This document shows positions 32,601-50,100 of a stretch of DNA of 64,000 nucleotides, piece after piece. The notes below the pieces were generated by a model. That model had not been told where the DNA came from. It saw nothing but the letters and a program-made list of their open reading frames with translations, and ran no database searches. The DNA is taken from positions 23,939,001 to 24,003,000 of the forward strand of contig JAZBQD010000027.1 of NCBI GenBank assembly GCA_036583965.1. The letters run 5' to 3'. The stretch is from Prunella strophiata. Lineage: Eukaryota; Chordata; Aves; Passeriformes; Prunellidae. The translations under genes were made by a program, and so were the position numbers. The stretch's first letter is position 1. Every line of letters begins with the position of its first letter.

Positions 32601-34976
32601 TCCTCATAGAAGTCTCCTTTGTCCCTATCAGGTGTCTCAAGTATTGTATTCCAGGAGCTCTACAGGATGCATGCATAGAAAATTTCCACATCAAGCCACC
32701 CTATTTAAGCCAAAACCTGCCTTCCTGAAGGATGTCTGAGTATTCATTTACAGCCTTCATGTGACAGAGAATCCACCAGGTACCCAGGTACTATCTCATA
32801 TTGCTTGATTACCTTCACTCAAACCCACACAACAGATTTGTAGATTGAAGTGGTTGTGTGATCCACTCTTGGCATCTCACCTGTACTTATTGTGCTGAGC
32901 AAAGTTGCTCGCTTTCATCACATATCTCATATCCCTCCCCTAAGCAGATCAAGATACCCCTTAACATATTTAAGGATGGATCTAGACTGAGCCTCCCTAG
33001 TCTCCTACCATAAAGCCTGGTTTCCAAAACTAATGTGATTCTTCTCACTGTTCCTCAGAGAAGGGTTTTGCTAATGCTGTACATGAAAATAATACAACCT
33101 TTCTTCTTCTGCTTGATATTCCCCTGCTCATATCTACAAGGGTCACATTTGCTGCTTTATTTACAGCACCACACAGAGTTTGCATTCAGTGGGCTGTGCA
33201 CAATCCCCCCTCAGTCCTTGACACCACTGCTGTTTGGCAGAAGACATTTGCCTTTTGTTTATATTTGAAGTGTGTTCTTCCCCACTGGACATATGACTTT
33301 GCCTTTGACTTTGCTGTTGAACAAGCTCTTTTTATCAAACAACCAGAGTTAGGCAGCACAACTGACTCATTACCAGCAGGAATTGCTATTCTGCCCACTT
33401 TGGGGTCATGGACACTTTTTACCATCAGGGATTATATATTTTCTTTCACATCTTTGATAAAGGCACTGAAGAGTACTGAGCAAAAAGAAAATCTTATTGC
33501 AAGTCTATAAGAGCATGCACTGCATGCTAATATCTCACTGATCCTTATTTTCTAAAACACATTTTGTTACTTATTGTTAGTCCACTGAATAAGGGCCACA
33601 TGGATATCTTTAGTGTTGCTTAATCAAAATAAGACTAAATGTGAATTACAGAAATATTTTTCATCAGTGGTTGCTTCCAATTACAAGTCCTTGTAATTTA
33701 ATTTAATAATTGATTTTATTTTAAAGTAGTTCCTCTTGATCCTTGTTGGCAATTTCTTTTTGCTTAGGGGTAGGATTTTTTTCTTTTTTAAATTTCAAGC
33801 ATATTGGTGTACAGGCCTACATTTTGCTGGCACTTAAGAAATGGAATAACACTGTGATCCTTTGCATCTAGAAAACCATCATTTTCTAACCTGATGTGCA
33901 ACTCATTATGTTCTACAAAAACAAGCTGCAGAAATACCCCAAGCTGATTTCAACTATTTCTATATAGTTTATATATTTAGAAACTTATATACAGCTTATA
34001 TACAGCTACCAGGGATGTTTCCCCACTGGTAGCACACGACCTTCAGTATCTGCTTCCCAGCCTTAAATTTCCTATCAGACATAAAGGATGAATCCTGTCT
34101 CTGCCCCCCAAGGTGGTCTGCAGTGGACACTTCACCCTCCCAGGGCTCCTCCCCAGCCCAGAGAGCCACTGTTTGCATTGGGATTTCCAGGCATTTTGAG
34201 CTTTACCCAAACAGCATCTATGGCATGTCAGCCTGCCTTTGATGGAGACTGCCCTTCCTGTCTCCCTCCTTCCCTCCCTCCTGTCTTGGCAGGCTGTAGC
34301 AGTGATTCCAGCATCCCCATCATCTGTATCATCACAGGGACGCTCGGTAATATCCATCACCTCACACAAACGTTTCCCGTTCCTTCCACCTGGTATCAAA
34401 CCTGGTTGAGTACTCCAATATCTCCGTTAAGTGCCTGTATTTTTGTTGACTTTTGTACCTGGCTGTGGCTGCTTGTTTCTATCTCCTCCCTGGTCAGAGG
34501 AAATGGAAGTGCTGCAGCGGCTGCAGTCTCGCAGACCCGAGGACGAACAGCAGCGGACAAACAGCGCCAGCACCGACCCCGGGGGCTGCGGGGGCGGCAG
34601 CGTGGGAATGTGAGTGCAGAGAGGGGAGCCCTGCCACCCGAGGGGGACAGCCCCAAAGGGCTGGGGACAGCTGCCAGGGATGGGAACGGGTTCGGGAGGC
34701 CCCGGCGGTCCCCACCCGCGGCGCCTTCAGCACCGCCCGCGGCGGACAGCGCCCGGCGGCGCCGCGGGCCGGGAGCGGAGCTGCGGCCCCGAGCCCCGCA
34801 GCGCCCCGGCCCCGCCGCGGGGTGCGGCCCCGGGAGCTCAGCCAGCCTCCCCCCGCCTGCCGCGGCCCGCCCCGCCGCCGCGGACACTCACCGAACATCT
34901 GGATGTGCCCCTTGGTGATGGGGTTGAAGCTGCCGCAGGCCAGCAGGATAACGTGGGTCTTGGTGGTCTCGGTCAT
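11578..34976 (-). CDS. NMNAT2: Nicotinamide/nicotinate mononucleotide adenylyltransferase 2, complete (11 exons)
   Basis: NMNAT2 joins NMN and ATP to make NAD on Golgi-derived vesicles and in axons, and its loss triggers SARM1-driven axon degeneration (family knowledge). Coding exons in transcript order: 34976-34892, 18487-18399, 17655-17588, 16890-16812, 15810-15681, 14547-14467, 14348-14304, 13510-13434, 12206-12105, 11874-11807, 11680-11578. They total 927 bp, 308 residues, with every phase matching; the human protein is 307. Visible landmarks are the nucleotidyl-transferase [10 protein letters not shown] at residues 15-24 with the catalytic His24, the palmitoylation pair Cys165-Cys166 in RICCVRPP, and the SSTKSR motif at 270-275. 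One extra Asn in an NNNN run explains the length difference. The start has A at -3. It converges with LAMC2 and diverges from SMG7. Confidence 0.97.
11807..11874 (-). CDS. NMNAT2: NMNAT2 coding exon 10
   Basis: It encodes [20 protein letters not shown], then KS and a split Arg. The SSTKSR substrate-binding motif spans the junction with exon 11. Confidence 0.97.
12105..12206 (-). CDS. NMNAT2: NMNAT2 coding exon 9
   Basis: Thirty-four whole codons: [20 protein letters not shown], then [14 protein letters not shown]. Phase 0 on both sides. Confidence 0.97.
12207..13433 (-). other. NMNAT2 intron 8, nothing else recognised
   Basis: Intron between coding exons 8 and 9. I see no exon, strong repeat or RNA gene in it. 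Confidence 0.5.
13434..13510 (-). CDS. NMNAT2: NMNAT2 coding exon 8
   Basis: It encodes (E)[18 protein letters not shown], then [19 protein letters not shown] is the conserved core strand and helix of the nucleotidyltransferase fold. The donor is GAT|GTGAGT. Confidence 0.97.
14304..14348 (-). CDS. NMNAT2: NMNAT2 coding exon 7
   Basis: A 45-bp exon encoding (D)[14 protein letters not shown]. The phase is 1 on both sides. The acceptor is TTTCTCAG and the donor is G|GTAAGT. Confidence 0.95.
14467..14547 (-). CDS. NMNAT2: NMNAT2 coding exon 6 (palmitoylation site)
   Basis: It encodes (A)[19 protein letters not shown], then MERFTFV. The cysteine pair corresponds to the palmitoylated human Cys164/Cys165 that hold the enzyme on vesicles. 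The donor is G|GTATGT. Confidence 0.96.
15230..15400. repeat. AT-rich microsatellite in NMNAT2 intron 5
   Basis: Imperfect TATAT/ATTATA runs from about 15238 change into a TACTA/ACTAT repeat with two copies of ACTATAGAGATACTA-like sequence (about 15338-15380). It directly adjoins the ERVL-like fragment to its right. Confidence 0.8.
15400..15640. mobile_element. ERVL-like LTR fragment
   Basis: The block containing CCAGACAGCCAGGACACAG, then CCTAATTGGCCAAATCACTC and AAGAATTGTTTTCTC, resembles songbird endogenous-retrovirus LTRs as I remember them. It has no open reading frame and is non-coding. It ends about 40 bp from the donor of NMNAT2 exon 5. Family assignment is from memory and needs a repeat-library search. 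Confidence 0.5.
15681..15810 (-). CDS. NMNAT2: NMNAT2 coding exon 5
   Basis: It encodes [20 protein letters not shown], then [20 protein letters not shown] and PTA. This is the isoform-specific central insert of NMNAT2; the NNNN run holds the extra residue. An ERVL-like fragment begins about 40 bp beyond its donor. Confidence 0.95.
16812..16890 (-). CDS. NMNAT2: NMNAT2 coding exon 4
   Basis: It encodes (R)[18 protein letters not shown], then EHHRDLMK. The [11 protein letters not shown] segment is essentially invariant in NMNAT2. The donor is AAG|GTGAGG. Confidence 0.97.
17588..17655 (-). CDS. NMNAT2: NMNAT2 coding exon 3
   Basis: It encodes [20 protein letters not shown], then WI and a split Arg. 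The acceptor is TTGTGCAG and the donor is AG|GTGGGT. Confidence 0.96.
18035..18115 (+). repeat. A-rich tract (A14 then AAACC-type)
   Basis: A run of 14 A followed by diverged AAACCAA units. It lies in NMNAT2 intron 2, about 280 bp beyond the donor of exon 2. Confidence 0.6.
18399..18487 (-). CDS. NMNAT2: NMNAT2 coding exon 2
   Basis: It encodes (E)[17 protein letters not shown], then [12 protein letters not shown]. The donor is ACG|GTGTGA, somewhat off consensus, and gives Thr where human has Gln before GLVSSRHR. The 89 bp fit phase. Confidence 0.95.
18990..19200 (+). mobile_element. CR1 LINE 3'-end fragment
   Basis: It shows TTCCAGGCTGCCACATCCCT, then GGTTGGATGGGGCTTGAAGC, the CCCTGCCTATGGCAGGGGG block and a tail AAACCATTCCAGGATTC. 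All are standard CR1 3'-end features. Confidence 0.8.
20125..20250 (+). mobile_element. CR1 LINE fragment, short
   Basis: It has the CR1-like order GGGATGCCCAGAGAAGTTTT, TTGGAAGTGTCTAAGGCCAG, GGCTGGGGCTTGGAGCA. It is truncated before the terminal repeats. Confidence 0.65.
20890..21340 (+). mobile_element. CR1 LINE 3'-end fragment
   Basis: A longer copy: the TGTCCAGAGAATGGAACAGA region, GGCTCAACCTGGAGAAAAGA, GGAGGGATTTAAAAGCCATG, ending AACCCAGATGATCCATGATT. It has no intact reverse-transcriptase frame. Confidence 0.8.
22620..23000. mobile_element. LTR-like fragment
   Basis: The blocks GGCTCAGTGCACTGGAG, CCAATTAAGAGCTGACACC and TCCATCTTGCTTCTACTCAC resemble avian endogenous retrovirus LTR ends. 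There is no coding capacity. The assignment is by memory of the family and is tentative. Confidence 0.4.
24550..24851 (+). repeat. Dispersed repeat, copy 2 (LTR-like)
   Basis: Second copy of the 8331-8626 element, inside NMNAT2 intron 1. It differs from copy 1 by scattered substitutions and short indels, for example a few bases missing from GGCTGGGCTGAGCC and an added GTGTG near the end. The divergence shows independent old insertions rather than a recent duplication. Confidence 0.6.
25119..25142 (+). repeat. (AACT)n microsatellite
   Basis: About five and a half AACT units in NMNAT2 intron 1. Confidence 0.85.
25885..26000 (+). mobile_element. CR1 LINE 3'-end fragment, short
   Basis: GGATGGGGCTTGGAGCAACC, then CCCTGCCCATGGTAGGGTG and CAAGATGATCTCTCTTCCAA, ending at the AGTGATTCT tail. 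Confidence 0.75.
28675..29110. promoter_or_regulatory. CpG-rich patch in NMNAT2 intron 1
   Basis: About 430 bp clearly richer in CG dinucleotides than the surrounding AT-rich intron, including CCACCGCGGCACC and TCAGCGCGGGATGAAATGG. On the NMNAT2 strand it holds a perfect donor AAG|GTGAGT with the exon side ending at 28769. No in-frame ATG precedes the donor in the phase needed to join exon 2. A TATAAAA (28552-28558) lies on the plus strand just outside. An alternative promoter is possible but unproven. Confidence 0.35.
34726..34753 (+). promoter_or_regulatory. Split RE1/NRSE-like REST site in NMNAT2 intron 1
   Basis: The left half TTCAGCACC (34726-34734) and the right half GGACAGCGCC (34744-34753) are each perfect matches to the REST half-sites, in the correct order and orientation, separated by 9 bp rather than the usual 2. 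Expanded RE1 sites with this kind of spacing are described for REST. It lies about 140 bp inside intron 1 and would fit neuron-restricted NMNAT2. Binding is not shown. Confidence 0.55.
34892..34976 (-). CDS. NMNAT2: NMNAT2 coding exon 1
   Basis: It encodes [20 protein letters not shown], then TKGHIQMF plus one base. It carries the ATP-binding [10 protein letters not shown] motif. The donor is G|GTGAGT. It lies in a CpG-rich segment, and the start codon context is GCACCATGA. Confidence 0.97.
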
Positions 34977-35190
34977 GGTGCGGCCCTGCCCGGCCCCGCC
35001 GCGGTCTGAGGCTCGGTGCGGCTGCGGGAGGAGGAGGAGGGCGGAGGGATGGAGCGGGGCCGGGCGGCAGCGGGGGCGGCGCCGCGGCTGCGGGAGCCGG
35101 GCCGGGGCCGCCCCTCGGCAGCGCGGCCCGGGGCGCGCCCCCGCGGGGTCCTACACACGCGAGTGTGCGTGTACGATCATGGGCACAGCC

Positions 35191-38100
35191 CACGGCACAC
35201 AAACATCCCAGCCGCACGGACAGGGCACACATCCATCCCCGAGGCACGGACAGGACATACATCCCTCCCTGAGGCACGGACAGGGCACACATCCCTCCCC
35301 GCGGCACGGACAGGGCACACATCCATCCCCGCGGCACGGACAGGGCACACATCCCTCCCCGCGGCACGGACAGGGCACACATCCCTCCCCGCGGCACGGA
35401 CAGGACACACATCCCTCCCCGCGGCACGGACAGGGCACACATCCCTCCCCGCGGCACGGACAGGGCACACATCCCTCCCCGCGGCACGGACAGGGCACAC
35501 ATCCCTCCCCGCGGCACGGACAGGGCACACATCCCTCCCCGCGGCACGGACAGGGCACACATCCCTCCCCGCGGCACGGACAGGGCACACATCCCTCCCC
35601 GCGGCACGGACAGGGCACACATCCCTCCCCGCGGCACGGACAGGGCACACATCCCTCCCCGCGGCACGGACAGGGCACACATCCCTCCCCGCGGCACGGA
35701 CAGGGCACACATCCCTCCCCGCGGCACGGACAGGGCACACATCCCTCCCCGCGGCACGGACAGGGCACACATCCCTCCCCGCGGCACGGACAGGGCACAC
35801 ATCCCTCCCCGCGGCACGGACAGGGCACACATCCCTCCCCGCGGCACGGACAGGGCACACATCCCTCCCCGCGGCACGGACAGGGCACACATCCCTCCCC
35901 GCGGCACGGACAGGGCACACATCCCTCCCCGCGGCACGGACAGGGCACACATCCCTCCCCGCGGCACGGACAGGGCACACATCCCTCCCCGCGGCACGGA
36001 CAGGGCACACATCCCTCCCCGCGGCACGGACAGGGCACACATCCCTCCCCGCGGCACGGACAGGGCACACATCCCTCCCCGCGGCACGGACAGGGCACAC
36101 ATCCCTCCCCGCGGCACGGACAGGGCACACATCCCTCCCCGCGGCACGGACAGGGCACACATCCCTCCCCGCGGCACGGACAGGGCACACATCCCTCCCC
36201 GCGGCACGGACAGGGCACACATCCCTCCCCGCGGCACGGACAGGGCACACATCCCTCCCCGCGGCACGGACAGGGCACACATCCCTCCCCGCGGCACGGA
36301 CAGGGCACACATCCCTCCCCGCGGCACGGACAGGGCACACATCCCTCCCCGCGGCACGGACAGGGCACACATCCCTCCCCGCGGCACGGACAGGGCACAC
36401 ATCCCTCCCCGCGGCACGGACAGGGCACACATCCCTCCCCGCGGCACGGACAGGGCACACATCCCTCCCCGCGGCACGGACAGGGCACACATCCCTCCCC
36501 GCGGCACGGACAGGGCACACATCCCTCCCCGCGGCACGGACAGGGCACACATCCCTCCCCGCGGCACGGACAGGGCACACATCCCTCCCCGCGGCACGGA
36601 CAGGGCACACATCCCTCCCCGCGGCACGGACAGGGCACACATCCCTCCCCGCGGCACGGACAGGGCACACATCCCTCCCCGCGGCACGGACAGGGCACAC
36701 ATCCCTCCCCGCGGCACGGACAGGGCACACATCCCTCCCCGCGGCACGGACAGGGCACACATCCCTCCCCGCGGCACGGACAGGGCACACATCCCTCCCC
36801 GCGGCACGGACAGGGCACACATCCCTCCCCGCGGCACGGACAGGGCACACATCCCTCCCCGCGGCACGGACAGGGCACACATCCCTCCCCGCGGCACGGA
36901 CAGGGCACACATCCCTCCCCGCGGCACGGACAGGGCACACATCCCTCCCCGCGGCACGGACAGGGCACACATCCCTCCCCGCGGCACGGACAGGGCACAC
37001 ATCCCTCCCCGCGGCACGGACAGGGCACACATCCCTCCCCGCGGCACGGACAGGGCACACATCCCTCCCCGCGGCACGGACAGGGCACACATCCCTCCCC
37101 GCGGCACGGACAGGGCACACATCCCTCCCCGCGGCACGGACAGGGCACACATCCCTCCCCGCGGCACGGACAGGGCACACATCCCTCCCCGCGGCACGGA
37201 CAGGGCACACATCCCTCCCCGCGGCACGGACAGGGCACACATCCCTCCCCGCGGCACGGACAGGGCACACATCCCTCCCCGCGGCACGGACAGGGCACAC
37301 ATCCCTCCCCGCGGCACGGACAGGGCACACATCCCTCCCCGCGGCACGGACAGGGCACACATCCCTCCCCGCGGCACGGACAGGGCACACATCCCTCCCC
37401 GCGGCACGGACAGGGCACACATCCCTCCCCGCGGCACGGACAGGGCACACATCCCTCCCCGCGGCACGGACAGGGCACACATCCCTCCCCGCGGCACGGA
37501 CAGGGCACACATCCCTCCCCGCGGCACGGACAGGGCACACATCCCTCCCCGCGGCACGGACAGGGCACACATCCCTCCCCGCGGCACGGACAGGGCACAC
37601 ATCCCTCCCCGCGGCACGGACAGGGCACACATCCCTCCCCGCGGCACGGACAGGGCACACATCCCTCCCCGCGGCACGGACAGGGCACACATCCCTCCCC
37701 GCGGCACGGACAGGGCACACATCCCTCCCCGCGGCACGGACAGGGCACACATCCCTCCCCGCGGCACGGACAGGGCACACATCCCTCCCCGCGGCACGGA
37801 CAGGGCACACATCCCTCCCCGCGGCACGGACAGGGCACACATCCCTCCCCGCGGCACGGACAGGGCACACATCCCTCCCCGCGGCACGGACAGGGCACAC
37901 ATCCCTCCCCGCGGCACGGACAGGGCACACATCCCTCCCCGCGGCACGGACAGGGCACACATCCCTCCCCGCGGCACGGACAGGGCACACATCCCTCCCC
38001 GCGGCACGGACAGGGCACACATCCCTCCCCGCGGCACGGACAGGGCACACATCCCTCCCCGCGGCACGGACAGGGCACACATCCCTCCCCGCGGCACGGA

Positions 38101-38566
38101 CAGGGCACACATCCCTCCCCGCGGCACGGACAGGGCACACATCCCTCCCCGCGGCACGGACAGGGCACACATCCCTCCCCGCGGCACGGACAGGGCACAC
38201 ATCCCTCCCCGCGGCACGGACAGGGCACACATCCCTCCCCGCGGCACGGACAGGGCACACATCCCTCCCCGCGGCACGGACAGGGCACACATCCCTCCCC
38301 GCGGCACGGACAGGGCACACATCCCTCCCCGCGGCACGGACAGGGCACACATCCCTCCCCGCGGCACGGACAGGGCACACATCCCTCCCCGCGGCACGGA
38401 CAGGGCACACATCCCTCCCCGCGGCACGGACAGGGCACACATCCCTCCCCGCGGCACGGACAGGGCACACATCCCTCCCCGCGGCACGGACAGGGCACAC
38501 ATCCCTCCCCGCGGCACGGACAGGGCACACATCCCTCCCCGCGGCACGGACAGGGCACACATCCCT
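35191..38566. repeat. 30-bp minisatellite, 111 full units, next to NMNAT2 promoter
   Basis: The unit is CAGGGCACACATCCCTCCCC plus GCGGCACGGA (30 bp, 73% GC, three CpG, one CCGCGG site). Full units run from 35221 to 38550, with a degenerate unit at 35191-35220 and a 16-bp partial unit at 38551-38566. Variants occur only in the first seven units (35221-35430), on the NMNAT2 side; the remaining units look identical. The unit length is a multiple of three and lacks stops in five frames, so long spurious reading frames cross it. It begins about 215 bp upstream of the NMNAT2 ATG. Confidence 0.98.
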
Positions 38567-38902
38567 AAGGGCAACCTCTCTGCTTACAGCCACTAAGAAG
38601 AGCTGCATGCAGCTGCCTTCAGCCCCTTCCCAAAGGCTGTCCTGGCCTTATCTCTGACTCCTACACACAGATTTTCCTCTCAGCAGGGACTTATTTCCCA
38701 CCAACAGGTCTCCCTTACTACCTTCATCTGTCTTCCTCCTCTGTCCTTAAGGGGACACTCCCCAGACATTAATTTCTGTCTTCTCATGGCAGAGACTTTT
38801 AACCCCTACCCTCAGCACTGTGCTATGTTTCTCCTTGTCCTGCTAAGATTAATTATTCACAGTCTCTTGCTTGAAAACTTTTTCCCTCCCAGCTCAGCCA
38901 GG

Positions 38903-38946
38903 TGCTCCTTCATACCACTCATCAGCCTGAGTGGTATGAAGGAGCA
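38903..38946. repeat. Perfect inverted repeat, 19-bp arms, 6-nt loop
   Basis: The left arm 38903-38921 (TGCTCCTTCATACCACTCA) is the exact reverse complement of 38928-38946. The loop is TCAGCC. It is too short for an ordinary microRNA precursor. It may be a product of template switching; no terminator function is expected in this genome. Confidence 0.9.
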
Positions 38947-40944
38947 AGACCACTAGGGAATGAACCCAAGATGATGCTGAATCTGTTTTTCCAGGGAACC
39001 CTTCAATCCTTGTTGTGGAGGCCCTGGCTGCACTCACTCTCAGGAGCACACACTGATGGCAAGGGAGTGGTCTGTCTCACTGCAGAGGGGTGTGGTAACA
39101 CCTCTGGGATTGTATTTCTATCTATTTCTGTCTCACCTCTGGGGTTGTATTTCTATCCTGATTTTTAATTCAGACCAAACTAGTGTTGATGAAGAGAAAT
39201 GCTGAGACAGGCGGTGTGCTCTGCTCCTTGTTCCCTGCTCTATCTTGCTGGCTCTGTATGGACATATGATGATTCAGTGGGATTAGATTTTGGGGTTGTG
39301 TTGGGCTTTTTCCTCTGCTGCTCCTCCAAGCTTGCCCTGAAAAGGAGAGACTCATGACTTTAGGAAAAAGAAGTGTCTCTGCAGTTTACCATTGGCACTG
39401 TGCACAGCATAACTCTGCCTTTAAAACAGGGCAGTCTTTCCCAGTCTTGCCAACAGGGAAATGGGTGCTTCTCTCCTGCACATTCCCACTAAGGATGGTG
39501 TCCTACCCCCTTCCCTTGGAGGTGGTACAACTGCCCTGGTATGAAATATGGGGACGTGCCCTTTACAAGAGGATTCTTCACTGACTTCTTTTATTCAGAA
39601 GAGGCTGAAGTTGAGGTGAGACAGCTGAATTTTATTAATCCTGACCCCATTCCCTGCTAACTTTGCATTTTGCAGGGGAGCATGTTTTCCGTTTGTAGCT
39701 TATACAACCTGCAGCTGCAGGAGCATTAAGTGCTGCTGTTGCAGAAGGCACAAGTGGACAAAACTGCCTGTGCCCAAGTTCTCCCACTGCCTGGTGATGC
39801 CAAACACATCCCACTGGTCCTGACAGCTCCTGCCATGCAGCTGACTCTCTCTGCCTGCTTTGTTTCACACCGGGGTTTGACCTTAAACACCAGTGAAAGA
39901 TCAAGATCACCTGTGCAGATGTAGGTTACTCACTGCCTGGCCATGGTGGGGACAAGGTCTGGCCAGCACTGCCAGGCCGTGGTGGGGATGAGGTCTGGGC
40001 AGCCCTGTCTGTAGCTCTTCCCTGGCTTTCCTGCTGGATGGTGAGTGATGTGGTAAATCAGCTGTCACTTAGCAACGCTGCCGGCTGGGGAGCGGCGGCA
40101 GGTTTTGGTGCAGGAGCGACGCCTGCAAGGCTGTGCTGTGCTTATTTCACCTTTTTTCCCCTCAGTGTTTTCCAACCCAGCACGTATGTTTTTTTCCCTG
40201 AACATGTGGGTGCAGGTTTCCCATGGCTGGAGACAGCAGCCCCAGCTGCAGAGCCAGATGTTCCCTGCCAGCCCTCCCTGGGATTGTTGTGCAGTGCTGG
40301 AGCACCCCGAGTCCCCCAGCGGATTTGAGCTCCAGCCCAGCCCATGGTGACAAGCAGCCATCTGCCACCTGCAGAGCTGGTACAGCAGGACACAGAGAGG
40401 CCAGGAGGATGATCAGCTGGGGTTTATTCCCTGAGGAAGAAAACAGCATGGAGAAACACAGGGACCTGCCTACACAGGCAGCTCATATCAGCACTGCAAA
40501 ATTGTTGCCTATGGGACTTGAGAGCTGTGGCTCACACCAAGGATATTTCTGCACATGGATTTGTCCAACTCTTCACCATCTGCACAGCCAGGCCTCAAGA
40601 GCAGGGGGCTGTGCAGCAGAAGGCAGGAAGATCATGGCTGTCTTCACTGGGGTGAGGGATGGGGACCCCTCAGTTCTCCCAGCACTGCCTCTCACCTTGT
40701 CCCTCCTCTTGGGAGCAGGAAGAGAAACCTTCCAGCTTAAGGCTTTTAAACTGACAGTCTGCAAACTCTTCAAAGGAACTCAAATCTGTCAGAGAAAAGG
40801 ACAAGTAGAGGGGCTTAAACCATTTGTGAACCCATCCTGGCACATTTTGGAGCCTTTTCTGACAAGGGCTAGAAGCAGATTCAGTTCTGCTGCCCACATG
40901 CCAGCCTTATGACTCTAAGAAGTTTTTGTAATGCAACAATGCAC

Positions 40945-41020
40945 TTTAAAAGAAAAAGAAAAAAAAAAACAAAAAAAAAACCAAAAACAAACAAACAAAT
41001 AATCCAAAAAACCCCACAAA
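40945..41020 (+). repeat. A-rich simple sequence
   Basis: AAAAAG and poly-A runs grading into AAAC and CAAA units. It sits about 175 bp upstream of the first 180-bp repeat arm. Confidence 0.7.
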
Positions 41021-41193
41021 ACAACGTGGCCTTTCCTTGAGAATTAACAAGCAAAAAATCTTGACTAAGGGCTCACCTGGTGACCCAGTTGGAACAAAAC
41101 CCCTGCTTCCCACAAAAGCAGCTTTTAATTTACACCCATTTTTGAGATATAATCTGAATGTATGTAGCAAAACTCAGGCTTGCAAACCCAGCC

Positions 41194-41373
41194 CATGAGA
41201 GGGAAGGGATTTGCAAATATAAGAAAGCCAGACTGAGCTGGCAGATTGGGCCAGGCCAAGCTGACCCAGTTGCTCATGGAACAACAGCATAGGACAATAA
41301 ATGGAAGCACTTGGGAGTAGCTGCTGTGGTGGGAGCCTAGTTGAGAGGGAGGGAGCTGCCAAACCCATGGTGA
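41194..41373 (+). repeat. 180-bp direct repeat, left arm
   Basis: From CATGAGAGGGAAGGGATTTG to CCAAACCCATGGTGA. By eye it is identical over all 180 bp to 41876-42055. The context on its left differs from that of the right arm. Confidence 0.9.
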
Positions 41374-41419
41374 ACAAAAAAAAAAAACAAAAAAAAAAAA
41401 AAAAAAAAAAAAAACAAAA

Positions 41420-41450
<31 letters not shown>

Positions 41451-41478
41451 AAAAAAAAAAAAAAAACAAAAAAAAAAA

Positions 41479-41509
<31 letters not shown>

Positions 41510-41552
41510 AAAAAAAAAAAAACAAAAAAAAAAAAAAACAAAAAAAAAAAAA

Positions 41553-41600
<48 letters not shown>

Positions 41601-41756
41601 AAAAAAAAAAAAAAAAACAAAAAAAAAAAAAAAAACAAAAAAAAAAAAAAACAAAAAAAAAAAAAAACAAAAAAAAAAAAAAAAAAACAAAAAAAAAAAA
41701 AAACAAAAAAAAAAAAAAAAAAAAACAAAAAAAAAAAAAAAAAAACAAAAAAAAAA

Positions 41757-41787
<31 letters not shown>

Positions 41788-41812
41788 AAAAAAAAAAAAA
41801 AAAAACAAAAAA

Positions 41813-41843
<31 letters not shown>

Positions 41844-41875
41844 AAAAAAAAAAAAAAAAACAAAAAAAAAAAAAA
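41374..41875 (+). repeat. A/C simple-sequence tract, about 500 bp
   Basis: Almost pure A on the plus strand, broken by roughly thirty single C residues at irregular spacings of about 12 to 25 bases. It lies exactly between the two identical 180-bp arms. The poly-lysine and poly-phenylalanine frames across it are not genes. Confidence 0.95.
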
Positions 41876-42055
41876 CATGAGAGGGAAGGGATTTGCAAAT
41901 ATAAGAAAGCCAGACTGAGCTGGCAGATTGGGCCAGGCCAAGCTGACCCAGTTGCTCATGGAACAACAGCATAGGACAATAAATGGAAGCACTTGGGAGT
42001 AGCTGCTGTGGTGGGAGCCTAGTTGAGAGGGAGGGAGCTGCCAAACCCATGGTGA
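41876..42055 (+). repeat. 180-bp direct repeat, right arm
   Basis: Identical copy of 41194-41373, offset 682 bp. It continues to the right into unique sequence beginning CCAGCTCTGAGGCCAC. Confidence 0.9.
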
Positions 42056-44654
42056 CCAGCTCTGAGGCCACATGGGGTGGGACAGCCTGGCCCAAAGGGA
42101 GAAATCTTCCATTTTGGATGACCCATTGTAGGAGCAGACATTCAAACAAGGAAGGAGTAAGCAAGGCTGAAAAGCAGCCAGTGAAAGACATGACTTCTAA
42201 CTGGGGTTTGAAAATTTATGAGCAGCCTGGGGAGCTCTTCTCAGGGCTTGGTTATCGTGCACTGGAAGAAGATGCCAAAAGGTGCCATGAGATAAAGCTG
42301 GAGTTCTATCAAGGTTGAGGACTTAACATCCTAGTTGTGGCCTCTGTGATTGACCCCAAGTGCTGTGCAGAGTTTCTGGGACACTGGGCTGACATTTGAG
42401 GCAATCTCCTGGGGAAGGTCAGCCTGGGAACCCATTTCTCTCTTGCCCACACTCAGCAACACCAGCTGAACACTGGCCACAGATGCAATTAGCCTTGGCA
42501 GCCCTTTTAATGTTTCTGAGGTTACAGCCTGGATCAATCTGTGCAGGTGGGATTGCAGCTGGGTTCCTGGGATGGGCAGTGAGGCTGAGGCACTCAGCAT
42601 GGATCCCTGGGAATGGCTGCTTGCTCTGTCCCTTCCAAAACTGAGCTAGCTTTATTTAGTGTGAAAGGGTACTTCTGCCCAGAATGCACAGCATTTATTC
42701 TCAAAAAATTAAAAGGAAATCCATTACTTGATGAATTATAAGAATTGGAAGGAATTTCTCTAAGAAATGAGGCCTATTTTATAATTTTTTCTTTCTTCCA
42801 GGTGATATTTGCAAGGGAATAATGAAGGCTTAACAAACCTCTACACAGCTGAAATTCCTGAAGGTTTTACATACAGGTTATATTTGGGGAAAATAGGTAA
42901 TTATTAGGGTAAGATGAGGCTTTTGTCACTAACAATTCAAAAATCTAGGTAAGATGATCTGGGATGACAACAAATACACTTTACTCATGATAACATAATT
43001 ACTGATCAGGAAGAATAGAGGACAAAATTAGGATTGTTTAGGTATCTTCGTGCTTTGTTTCTTCCTTCAAATGCTGTTGAGTGCTAATTTCCCACATCAC
43101 AACATTTAGATTGAAACCAATCAGATTGAAACATGCAGATTGAATCACCAAACCTGCAGAGAATTTGATGTTTCATCATTCAGCTGCTGAGCTGTTCTCT
43201 CATCTTTGCTTGATCCCAGGTTTTCAAGCCGAGCAGCAGGAGAATGTGATGTCTCAAAGACAAAGAAGCTGAAGTTTGGCACAAAGGTCCAGTGCCACCT
43301 CTGTGTGTGAAAACAGGGGCAGAATATCCACACACAAAGGAGAGACTTTGGACTCAGTGAGCCTCACAGGACAATTAAAGATGTTGGTGTTAATGAAGAG
43401 AGAGGGAAGCAGGCTCCACAAGGTCCACCTCTCCATTGTTGCCTTAAATGACCTTGAAGCAATCTCTTCTGCTCCCCTGGCTATCTGAAAAGTGGGGATG
43501 GTCCTTGCTTGCCTCTTAGAGCAGGTTTTGAGGGTAAACACATCCAAGGTCTGTGAAATGCTGAGCTGGCACAGTCACAGAGGCAGCTGAAGGATGTAAA
43601 ATGGATTCACATTTGGGATTACAAGACTTTCCCTCTGGAGAGCAGAGCAGCTTCACTCCTGGGCACTTTGGCTCATTGTGGCTGAGGGCTGGGATTGTTC
43701 AATGGTTTCACAGTGTCTCCGCCCTCCTTCTACCCTGGGGACCAAATCCTTTCCCATTATCTGACATTAATAAAATGATAGGCTACAGTTATTGACCCAT
43801 AAATAACAAAGAAGATAATACAAGTTGACCTCTATGAGAAATCTGTTTCTTTTGTCACAAATCTCTTGGAACAAAAGTAACGGGAGATTGATTTGGGGGT
43901 TCCCCTTAAATAGAAGGAAATTTTACCCTTGCTGGGTGCAATAAAAGGCTTGAATTAGAATTTCATAAGAAATAGAGCAGAGCAATCAGCAGCAATGTCA
44001 AGCCCTCAAAAATGTTATGTGGGATAATCTGATGGCAAATCTGGACTTGTGAAAGAGCCATCTGAGAGTCAAGAAGAGATGGTGTGGGAGACAAACTCAC
44101 GTACACACTGTCCTAATGGACAGATCTATTTCCACAGTGCAGAAACTCAGAGGGAAGCAAAAGATCCCACAATTCAGAGAAAAAGCCCTGAAAAACAAGG
44201 AAAAGTCTGCAAAGATTGTGACATCCTTTGCTTCTTTGTCTGGAAGATATTAAAGAGGAGTGAGAAAAGGTGAAGGGAGACTTTGGAACTGGGCAGGTTG
44301 TCCTGATGGACCACAGGTTTCTCCATGCAGCTGCCCTCAGGTGTAGCTCTGCTTGGCAACTTATACTGGCATGAAGGAGGTTAAATAACACTGGCAAATG
44401 ACACACAAGAGATTCTCTTGAAAATATCCAGGGCTGCCTGTTCCCTGCTGCCAGTTCTGCCCCATGGGAACCTCTCTGGTCTTTTGGAGTGGCTCTGAAA
44501 GGGGTTTGGACCCAGACAAGACTAAACCAGACAGCTGCTGAATTGATGCTGCTGCTCTTTCTTTGTGCCTGACCCAGCACGAGTGTGATGCCTCCAGGGA
44601 GCACTTTGTGGTCTCCTGGATGAGAACTGAGCTCATCAAGAAAGGATACAGGAA

Positions 44655-45010
44655 TTGGGGTTGTTCACCTGGAGAAGAGAAGGTTTTGGGGTGACCTAAC
44701 TGTGACCTCCAAGTAGCTGAAGGGAACTGACTGAAAAGATGGAGAGGGACTTTGGGCAGGGCCCTGGAGCAACAGGGCAAGGGGGAATGCCTCTGTTCGT
44801 TCTGACAGAGGACAGGGTTAGATGGGATATCAGGGAGAAATTCTTCCCTGTGAGGGTGGTGTGACACTGCCACAGGTTGCTCAGAGAGGTTGTGGCTGCC
44901 CCATCCCTGAAGTGTTCCAGGCTATGCTGGATGGGGCTTGGAGCAAACTGGGATAGTGGCAGGAGTCCCTGCCCATGGCAGGGGGGTTGGAATGAGGTAA
45001 GCTCTGGCTG
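44655..45010 (+). mobile_element. CR1 LINE 3'-end fragment
   Basis: It runs from GGTTGTTCACCTGGAGAAGA through GATGGGATATCAGGGAGAAA and GGATGGGGCTTGGAGCAAAC to GGCAGGGGGGTTGGAATGAG. It lacks the terminal short repeats. Confidence 0.82.
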
Positions 45011-45904
45011 TTTGAAGCCATTCCCCTTGTCCTGTCACTCCAGACCCTTGTCCAGAGCCCCTCCCCATCCTTCTTGTACCTTCAGGTGCTGCAAGGCCAC
45101 AGTCAGGTGCAAGGCGCCCTGGTGGGGCATGCTGGATGAGGAGCAGCAGGATAAGGCTCCCAGTCACAGCATGAAGGGTCTGGGGACAGTCCTGGACAAT
45201 GTGCCCTGAGAGATGCAGCTCCTGAGAGCAGCACTTGTGCACTGATCCAGGACATGAAACCTCAGAGCCCAGACTCAGCCTGGTTGAGCACAGGACAGGC
45301 TCCAGGCAGGCAGGAGCAGCCCCAGTTTGCCCAGTGCTGAACCAGTTTGCTCCTGCTCTGCAGCTGGGAGGTGGAGGGATGGAGCTGAGCCCTGGTCCCT
45401 GCCTGAGGGGCTGCACAGCATTCCTTGGGAGGTTTCCCACGGCTCACTGCCCAGCCCTGGTCACTGAAAGCAGGAAAACCATCCTGCAGCCTTGCAAGGC
45501 TCCTCTTTGAACACGTGGGGGCCTGAAAAGAATTTCCTTAAACACGTTCCTTTTTTCAACCTGGAAAAACGTGGGGGATTTATTTTCAAAACATGATCTT
45601 TCATTTTGTCCTCAGGTCACTTACAGACTCAAATGACACAGCTTTTATTAGCCAGCCACCTTGTGCTCATCTGATCCCAAATTTTGCTCTGCCTCATTTC
45701 TTCAGGCTGGCTCATTTGCTCGAATGGACACTGAACTCAGGGGGATTTTTCCTGCCATAAAAAACCAAATTGGAGCACAAAGCAAGTCACCAAGTCAGCA
45801 CAGGAGGTGGAACCACGTGGTATAAATGGTGGGAATACTGTAAATATTGAGCTGTGCTAGAATGTTGCACCCAGGTGCCAGGTTACTGCCTGATGTGCCC
45901 ATGT

Positions 45905-46580
45905 CCTGGCTCCATGCTGAGGTGGCCCTGCCTGGAGCACCATGTCCAGCTCCAGAGTCCCCAGCACAGGAAGGACATGGAGCTGTTGGAGCGAGTCCAG
46001 GCAAGGCTACCAAGATGATCAGAGGGATGGAGCAGCTTTGTTATGAGGAAAGGCTGGGAGAATTGGGGTTGTTCAGCCTGGAGAAAATAAAACTTCAGTG
46101 TGACCTAATTGTCCCAGGACAGGAGAGACCTGGAGCTCCTGGAGCAGGTCCAGAGGAGGCTGAGGAGATGAGGAAGGGCGTGGAGCAGCTCTCGAGGGAC
46201 CTGTGGCTGTTCAGCCTCAAGAGCAGACCCAGCTGAGAGGAGCCCTCACCCCCCTCTGTCCCTGGCTGCAGGGAGGGCTCAGAGCAAGGACCAGGCTCTG
46301 CTCCCTAAGGCCCAGCAATGGGACAAGAGACCATGGGCAGAAATGGATGCCCAAGAGTTCCACCTGAACATGACCAAGAACTTCTTTCCTGTGCAGTGAC
46401 CTAGCACTGAAACAGAGACCAGAGAGGCTGTGGAGTCTCCCTCACTGGGGATATTCCAGACCTGTCAGGACACAATCCTGTGCCACTGGCTCTGGGATGA
46501 CCCTGCTTGAGCAGGGAGGTGGGACCCTGATGACCCACTGTGGTCCCTTCCAACCTGCCGCGTTGTGTTTCTGTAATTCT
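45905..46580 (+). mobile_element. CR1 LINE 3'-end fragment adjoining SMG7 promoter
   Basis: About 670 bp with CCATGTCCAGCTCCAGAGTC, GGTTGTTCAGCCTGGAGAAA and the terminal GGTCCCTTCCAACCTGCCGC followed by CTGTAATTCTGT. It contains an internal duplication of the CCTGGAGCTCCTGGAGCAGG-type segment, so it may be two nested copies. Its 3' end meets the SMG7 CpG island. Confidence 0.8.
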
Positions 46581-47147: not shown

Positions 47148-47176
47148 ATGAGCCTGCTGTGCGCGCAGTATCTCCG
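47148..47176 (+). CDS. SMG7: SMG7 first coding exon (gene continues beyond window)
   Basis: SMG7 is a 14-3-3-like, TPR-containing adaptor that binds phosphorylated UPF1 and, with SMG5, recruits decay enzymes in nonsense-mediated mRNA decay (family knowledge). Only nine codons and a split arginine are here: MSLLCAQYL(R), against human MSLQSAQYLR, followed by a donor CG|GTGAGT. The short match would be weak alone. Support comes from the CpG island, the start context with A at -3, the exact junction position, and the known NMNAT2-SMG7 head-to-head order. Exon 2 was not found before 64000. Confidence 0.85.
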
Positions 47177-50100
47177 GTGAGTGCCTGCGGAGCGCGGCGG
47201 GCGGGCGAGGCCGCGGCCGGGCGGCCCGGGAGCGGCGGGGAGCGGGCGGGCTCGGAGCCCTCGGGCCTCGCCGCGGCGGCCGGGGGCGCTGGGCCGGGAG
47301 CGGGCCGTGCCCCGGCCGCTGTGCCGGAGCCAGCCGCCGCGCTCCCCCGCCCCGCCGGGCTCGGCTGCCGCATGGCCCAGCGCTCCCCAGCAAGGTCACG
47401 CCGGTGCCTGGAGCCGCGGGCAGGGTGGGAGAGCCCGCGGCTTCCCCGGCGGAATTCTCCACCGCTTCCCAAGGAGCCGGCAGGGGCAACCCAAGGCTGC
47501 GGGGCCACCGCGAAGTTTGACCCCGGCTGTAGAGCGGGAGCAGTGCTCCAGCCCCGGAGGTGCTCTGGCAGAACCGGAGGAGCAGCAGCCGTGTCTGTGC
47601 CCTCGCCATCAGCTGGAAGTCCTCAGTCACGGCTGGCACAGCCGGTCGGTGCTGGGGACGCTCAGCTGAGGGCTTGGGAGAGCAGTGAGGCTGCCAGGGC
47701 TGTGCTTTGACACAGAACCGTTCCTGAGCCCCTCGAGTCGAGAGCACGGGATTCCTCACGTTGATACGAGCAGAACTTTGATAGGCTTTGGGGTGAACTT
47801 ATCGTTTGACTGAACTTATACCCAAATGCTCCTTCTCTAGTGGTTTTGGGAAGCTGCGTGGTGAGCTACAGATGGCTTTTCAGTAGCTGTAAAGTACTTA
47901 ATGTCCAGGTTTGATCGTGTTGTGTCACTCCTGATGCTTCCAGAACATCTCGTGGAAAAGGAGTAGGTATGCCAGAAGGGCATGCACATTCCTTCTGAGG
48001 AGTTCAGGGCTTGGGAAGGATTTAGAAGGAGTGAATTCAATTTTGAAATTTTACATTTCAAAAGCACTTTCTATACAAAGTTCTGAAACACTTCAGCAGT
48101 CCCTCCTTGCTGGTTCTCAAAATTCCTTAATTCTTCCTCATCTTGTCTTTTACCTCTGCTTCCTTCTGTTATCCCAGATCCTACCTCAAGCTGATTGCTT
48201 CAAAAAAGAAAAAAAAATAATCTTTTTTATCTAATAGTGAGTTTGTGACCTTTTGCTCTTTCAGGTGAGTACACCTGTGCTGCCATGAAACTTCTTCATT
48301 CTATCTTTCCTCTTACATTATGACAAAGCTTGTAAATACTTTATTACTAGCAATCTTCTACCAGTACAAGACTTGCTTTTTTATTGTAGGACATGTCTTA
48401 ATAATATTGTAACATGTGGCTCCCTGTTCCTTCTTGTGACTGCACGTGTCCTTTGGCTGCTTTGGGTTCTGGGAGGTTGTACCATGTCACACATGTCCCT
48501 GCCCCTGTCACCTTCCTGCACCACCAGCCTCTTCCTTAGCATTTTGCTGTGCCAAGCTGGAAATCCTTCCTGCAAGCTGTGGGCAGGAATCACCAGTTTC
48601 TCCTCTCTTTGTTCCTCCCACACTTCAGCTCGTCCTGGGTTGTTCCTGCTTTTTCCTGACTGCTTTGTTTATACTGTGCCAGAGCAACAGGACTGAAGCG
48701 TGTGCACATAACTAATGTGTTAGTTACAGTCAGTGTCTCTGTCACCTAAGAACCTTATCTCTTCCTAAAACTACAGGACAGTCCCCCTTCTAAACTTTTC
48801 AAGCATTCTGTAGTCCATCATCTTCCTTCTGCCTCCAAAGACCATTTGGGTTTGTTCTCTGTGGAGAAGGTATGCTTGGGGAAGGTTTCCTTGAAAAGCT
48901 GTGAAATGCTTTTTGCACCCACAGAAGGCACATTTAAATGGTTTCATTTGCATAGGGCAGAAATGCAGCTGCAGATTACTGCAGCCCAAGCTCATAAAGG
49001 GAACTGGGAATTAGGCCTCAGACTCTCAGAGCCAGTTCTGGTAGTCCTCTGTCTTAAGGAGGAGGGCATCCTCCTTTTCACTGTGGCAGGACAGGCTCAA
49101 TGCAACTGTAATGAAGAAGGAATACACCAGAGTGTAACAATGTGAGAGGCAGCTTAACAAAACCTTGAGCCAAATGAAGACATGAGGCAAGCAGTCTCTG
49201 CTGTCTTCATTGTCTTAACACCAAGGAGGGACAGAAAAGTTTCTGCAAGAAATCATTTTTGTGTGTATTTGGATTTTAGACAGAAATGAGACAGATTTCT
49301 AAGGTGAACATGTAATGATTGAATATCTAGTGAAATAATGACTCTGCAAGAATCAAGCTGTTGAAGAGATGAGTGGGGAAGAAGGGACTTTCAGCTGGAC
49401 TACCTTAACTCTTCCACTTCTGGGATTCTCACTTTCCTGAGTGTGTGTGAATCAGCTATTTTAAAATGCTATCCTTGAAGGACTGTGCCCCTTCAATCAA
49501 CCTGTGAGACCTGAGGAACACATGAGCCCCCTACAGAAGTCTTCCAGGAAGAGCAAATAAGGTCAGGCTTCATGTACTGAGTCTTGGAAAAGTTGCAGGA
49601 GAGTCTGTTTTTAAGTCATCTTCCTATGATGCAATAGGTTTTGGGGATTTTTGCTTTCCCAGTTTTATCCTTTTCAAAGTCACCTGTCAAGAGTATTGGA
49701 GTGTATTCTCTCCCATCTAGTTTCCTACTTCTCTGGAATCATTGTTTGAGTCACTTCTCAAAGATTTGCATTGCATCTGGTAAGGTGAGCAGACCTTTTG
49801 GAGGGTTCTTTTAGGAGACAAGAACCTAAAAGATATTTTAGGAAACAGGGGCACTGTTCAAGTCTCCCTTTTCAGGTGAATCTGTTCATCACATCTGGCT
49901 GAAAATTTGTATCCATTCTATTTGTGCTGCCTGGGGAAGCTACAAATGCTCCTCATAAATCAAATTAATTTCATGGGGCATTTGTCTTAAAGTAGACATT
50001 TCATGTATCCTGCTAGATATAAAAGAAGTCACTTATAAGCAAAATATCACTGATAGGATTTCTGACACAATAGCACAGAAACTTCTGAGCACATCCATTT

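Follow-up and report, generated by a model that had tools for sequence, protein, structure and literature searches.

An apparently young, one-sided 30-bp minisatellite beside the NMNAT2 promoter region of Prunella strophiata

Introduction

How did an array of more than a hundred near-identical units come to lie beside the promoter region of NMNAT2, and does it matter to that gene? Minisatellites consist of units of roughly 7-100 bp, arranged head to tail in many copies. Since NMNAT2 is dosage-sensitive for axon survival, a promoter-adjacent array of this kind, which possibly changes fast in length, would constitute a natural length series for the action of promoter repeats. Among the open-licence papers listed, none described a repeat at the NMNAT2 promoter, as judged by titles or abstract openings.

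Here we analyse the array within a window of 64,000 nucleotides (C193:23939001-24003000; contig C193 measures 31.3 Mb, in an assembly of 1.05 Gb and 838 contigs). With a probability of about 0.6, we read it as a young minisatellite that is private to this locus, was extended on its distal side and would act on NMNAT2, if at all, at the level of the DNA.

A one-sided array with an exact distal block

TRF analysis returned a tandem array with a period of 30, 112.4 copies, 99% matches, 0% indels and a score of 6655, a unit length and copy number that place it among the minisatellites. The array and its two parts are as follows:

35194..38566, no strand assigned: 30-bp minisatellite of 112.4 copies, unit GGCACACATCCCTCCCCGCGGCACGGACAG on the plus strand (TRF, unit counts and match scans)
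35194..35433, no strand assigned: the eight older-looking units proximal to NMNAT2, which contain all 13 substitutions
35406..38566, no strand assigned: block of exact 30-bp periodicity, 3,161 bp long, reaching the distal edge

The consensus accounts for 107 of the 112 full units. Counted from the NMNAT2 end, the units that differ are 1, 2, 3, 5 and 8 (with 5, 2, 4, 1 and 1 differences, respectively), and the chance that five odd units would all fall within the first eight of 112 under random placement is 4e-7. The near-perfect 30-bp array described in an earlier note on this DNA is borne out by the assembly, with about 112 units by TRF and unit count in place of 111; the confinement of the variants to the NMNAT2 side also stands, although they occupy the eight nearest units and not seven. 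Interspersed unit variants, a trait of the MS32 type, are absent, as all variants are confined to units 1-8. At the opposite edge, the last partial unit gives way abruptly to AT-richer, non-repeat DNA.

The GC content of the array is 0.73. Counted from 35224, it contains 330 CpG and 108 copies of CCCTCCCC (which corresponds to GGGGAGGG on the NMNAT2 strand), in agreement with the more than 300 CpG and more than 100 motif copies reported earlier. Five of the 13 substitutions in units 1-8 fall at CpG positions and one is a CpG transition, so that the old units give no sign of germline CpG decay, in a small sample (n=13) in which the directions of change take the consensus as ancestral; the earlier suggestion that copy number could tune methylation is weakened to that extent. 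The array is also open in all six frames, as a consequence of a 30-bp unit free of stops; because such a unit suffices, the open frames were not taken as genes and a coding function was rejected.

The array lies between NMNAT2 and SMG7

The surroundings of the array are defined by the first coding exons of two genes and by a CpG-rich region:

34893..34976, minus strand: NMNAT2 coding exon 1 (tblastn with human NMNAT2, identity of 100% across 28 aa)
34501..35193, no strand assigned: CpG-rich region around the NMNAT2 start, adjoining the array (300-bp bins)
47148..47177, plus strand: SMG7 coding exon 1 (ATG at 47148, MSLLCAQYLR then GT)

That the neighbouring gene is NMNAT2, as had been proposed, was confirmed by tblastn, in which 28 of 28 exon-1 residues match. 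Further exons follow down to 11581 with the same human protein, and in the PDB the exon-1 frame matches NMNAT entries, NMNAT1 and NMNAT3 among them. On the other side, four more SMG7 segments were located in the downstream flanking locus. Since NMNAT2 starts at 34976 on the minus strand and SMG7 at 47148 on the plus strand, the array occupies head-to-head intergenic DNA. Its position bears out the earlier placement in the NMNAT2 promoter region, with the correction that 217 bp, and not about 215, separate it from the first base of the NMNAT2 ATG (34976).

In the 300-bp bins from 34501 and 34801, GC is 0.75 and 0.78 and CpG o/e 0.81 and 0.84, respectively. Outside the array, such CpG-rich DNA adjoins it on the NMNAT2 side only: it begins at about 34501, continues through the array and ends at the far edge, and from 38701 to 46500 no 300-bp bin exceeds a CpG o/e of 0.34, most being at 0.1 or below. 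Further along, about 340 bp past the array, we observed a perfect inverted repeat (38904-38945), in which arms of 18 bases enclose a loop of 6. At 41194-42058, two copies of a 183-bp sequence, differing by 1 mismatch, flank a 500-bp tract in which A runs are broken by 26 single C; no further copy of the 183-bp sequence turned up in a DNA search of the whole genome.

A private unit and a second one-sided array

Scanning the whole genome for the unit with up to 3 mismatches gave 110 matches in forward orientation and 0 in reverse, and the approximately 100 places listed all lie in the NMNAT2 array; the window by itself likewise gave 110, against 0 in 100 shuffles. The unit is private to the locus, and a genome-wide satellite, which had been raised beforehand as an observation that would count against the locus-specific reading, was rejected. 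The DNA search returned one other weak match, 71% identical, at C193:2628577; since that locus (L009) contains a degenerate 9-bp array and AT-rich repeats, the match was taken as low-complexity.

For comparison, we used 16 arbitrary 10-kb stretches (L012-L027), excluding three loci chosen for cause. Tandem arrays of at least 1 kb occurred in 2 of the 16 (L013 and L016), and a third (L022) held a short perfect tandem array. None of the 16 contained an exact tandem block longer than 299 bp, and measured against them the exactness of the NMNAT2-side array is unusual. L013 (C2:1000001-1010000, on a 4.3-Mb contig) consists mostly of tandem arrays over its 10 kb; one of these, with 87 copies of 25 bp at 97% identity, has interspersed variants and is not polar.

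The one-sided, exact architecture is not unique to the NMNAT2-side array. Leftward extension of L016, beyond the 16 stretches themselves, met a second such array with 76 copies of a 34-bp unit (L030:3860-6000 and L029:1-464, C193 ~4,993,860-4,996,464), in which the periodicity is exact for 2,328 bp up to the right edge and degenerate units are found only at the left. It adjoins the coding frame of a gene resembling proline--tRNA ligase (L029:388-1398), and its unit is without CpG. This second near-perfect, one-sided array on C193 weakens the special status of the first, and the presence of both on one contig suggests a growth process that such arrays share in this genome. A 2.9-kb, GC-rich and CpG-rich imperfect array based on 17 bp lies nearby (C193 ~4,998,308-5,001,226, L029/L016), so that two different kilobase-scale arrays occur there within ~7.4 kb.

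The perfection of the NMNAT2-side array might have been made by consensus building, the true array being shorter or its units more varied. Its identity over 104 units is indeed extreme, as is shown by the lack of comparable blocks in the 16 stretches; however, the window is without N and the array without indels, the 25-bp array keeps its mixed units, and the A/C tract near the NMNAT2-side array keeps irregular run lengths. As the mixed units and irregular runs indicate that the assembly is not smoothing repeats in general, we regard an assembly artefact as very unlikely.

The same comparison bears on a rival interpretation, in which the array is a neutral passenger of common tandem expansion and has no measurable effect on NMNAT2 since the 217-bp proximal promoter is intact. 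The frequency of kilobase arrays in the sample speaks in its favour, as do the similar one-sided array with a CpG-free unit beside another gene and the 11% of macrochromosome introns that are reported to be length-variable in chicken (PMC12954441). Set against this are the 330 CpG and 3.4 kb of GC-rich DNA placed directly against the promoter region, and a human promoter repeat at such a position that does alter output (PMC9655992, discussed below). We give a neutral passenger slightly less than an even chance.

Age and direction of growth

To date the arrays we assumed that a zebra finch rate (PMC12047795), 2.0e-9 per bp per year, is applicable, and read one assembled sequence. Zero change in 3,161 bp places the 95% upper bound on the age of the NMNAT2-side array at 0.47 Myr, a figure that refers either to a single burst or to the most recent homogenisation; the corresponding bound for the 34-bp array is about 0.64 Myr. 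The recent, polar expansion proposed in the earlier note is upheld by this lack of differences and by the one-sided structure. Within the old units, some variants are common to non-adjacent copies: units 1, 2 and 5 share one at position 12, and units 3 and 8 share one at position 2. This points to a short older array whose units had already been shuffled when one of them was amplified.

The reading we prefer, a young and distally extended minisatellite, would begin with a short, already diverged array, some eight units of 30 bp, next to the CpG-rich promoter region of NMNAT2. Roughly 104 identical copies would then have been added on the side facing away from NMNAT2, probably as one unit was copied by a recombination- or replication-driven process, within about the last half million years. 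Array length may vary between individuals, and copy number might tune NMNAT2, as the earlier note had proposed.

Recombination is reported to be enriched at CpG islands in the zebra finch (PMC12047795), and gene conversion has been proposed for GC-rich human minisatellites (PMC2599865). Growth at the island-facing end predicts new units at that end, but they sit distally, and the CpG-rich promoter region is faced by the diverged end. Growth at a promoter-side hotspot would have left the reverse polarity, and a simple model of this kind does not account for the array. Bird arrays of this type might instead grow one way, away from CpG-rich promoter regions: recombination would take place at CpG islands, with the diverged seed anchored on the island side and identical units added on the far side. 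If true, directional growth would need only a few hundred thousand years to create large length alleles close to promoters. The degenerate end does point towards a CpG-rich stretch in both near-perfect arrays (n=2), although at the 34-bp array this stretch is partly old repeat and CpG-rich coding DNA is found on the other side too. We consider directional growth away from promoters quite unlikely. That the third kilobase-scale array, of 25 bp, is not polar counts against the reading we prefer. A search for the PRDM9 marker (SSXRD) gave no match here and likewise none in its 14 control genomes, and so carries no information.

Comparison with known repeats

The closest description of the NMNAT2-side array is avian sequence stuttering, a massive and recent expansion of short sequences of local origin that are tens to hundreds of bases long and, in chicken, length-variable among individuals (PMC12954441). 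In line with a local origin, the unit studied here is private to its locus. Stuttering, however, is described mainly from introns on dot chromosomes (190 exon-stuttering introns out of 236, with 46 elsewhere) and as imperfect, less organised repeats (PMC12954441). The NMNAT2-side array is located on a 31.3-Mb contig, in the intergenic DNA that separates NMNAT2 from SMG7, and is exact over 3,161 bp.

A GC-rich unit of tens of bp is likewise found in MS32 and CEB1, for which gene conversion (SDSA) has been proposed. According to the same source, the alleles of those loci are highly interspersed and some of their active ends meet a hotspot (PMC2599865); in contrast, the distal part of the NMNAT2-side array is uniform and its old units face the CpG-rich promoter.

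Upstream ATGs argue against an effect through the mRNA

An effect on NMNAT2 could in principle be exerted at the level of the RNA, with the array included in the transcript and translation repressed by its upstream ATGs or by strong hairpins. Every full unit supplies one or more upstream ATGs, and of the 117 upstream ATGs in all, 112 share a single frame:

34888..38566, minus strand: frame common to the 112 upstream ATGs of the array, out of frame with NMNAT2, with its stop at 34888, beyond the NMNAT2 ATG

Both the overlap of this frame with the NMNAT2 start codon and the folding of NMNAT2-sense RNA (-69.7 kcal/mol for four units, z -4.49) are compatible with such repression, but it would require a start about 3.6 kb upstream of the ATG and an array that is not spliced out, and we judge it highly improbable. 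As the frame overruns the NMNAT2 ATG, the array is unlikely to form part of an efficient 5'UTR; given the 112 upstream ATGs and the strong RNA fold, the start of an efficient mRNA most probably lies within the 217 bp, or else the array is spliced out. Any effect of the array on NMNAT2 is thus probably exerted at the DNA level.

Possible effects on the promoter

The length of human VNTRs has been associated with the expression of nearby genes (PMC8024321, PMC8096271). A closer parallel is provided by the human CSTB promoter dodecamer (EPM1), a GC-rich repeat about 175 bp upstream. When it expands, the promoter region becomes longer and promoter activity falls to roughly half, perhaps via altered spacing. 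Activity remained at 61% and 81% in the constructs with more repeats and at 36% and 28% in those with fewer, so that this effect does not rise with length (PMC9655992). The NMNAT2-side array is similarly a GC-rich repeat (0.73) close upstream, at 217 bp as measured to the ATG. The two differ in that the CSTB unit is 12 bp long, with 2-3 copies normal and 30-80 pathogenic (PMC9655992), and in that the CSTB effect is a measured one and that of the NMNAT2-side array a predicted one. By analogy, 3.4 kb of GC-rich, CpG-rich DNA against the core promoter would alter its output, and we tentatively propose that the array may mildly lower or shift NMNAT2 promoter output at the DNA level and not via the mRNA, a proposal to which we give clearly less than even odds.

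A different action at the DNA level would follow if the approximately 108 copies of GGGGAGGG on the NMNAT2 strand formed a homotypic motif cluster, serving as an enhancer or held closed by a MORC3/DAXX-type system. In this reading GGGGAGGG would attract SP/KLF- or MAZ-like factors. The 108 copies are putative factor sites in large number, but as a single motif copied along with the unit they are not independent regulatory evidence. Human MORC3-restricted tandem-repeat enhancers offer a precedent for a minisatellite with one motif in many copies (20-192 bp units with up to 61 motifs, SP/KLF-like ones included); in the same report, no general gene-regulatory activity was seen beyond two loci (PMC13373173). 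We hold a regulatory motif cluster to be unlikely.

Folding of the array as DNA was also assessed. Predicted hairpins are suggestive only, with z -2.89 for the NMNAT2-sense strand and z -1.17 for the other. Canonical G-quadruplexes (G3+, loops 1-7) are absent from both strands of the array, and a pattern with loops up to 25 matches on the NMNAT2 strand, where weak long-loop forms may be possible.
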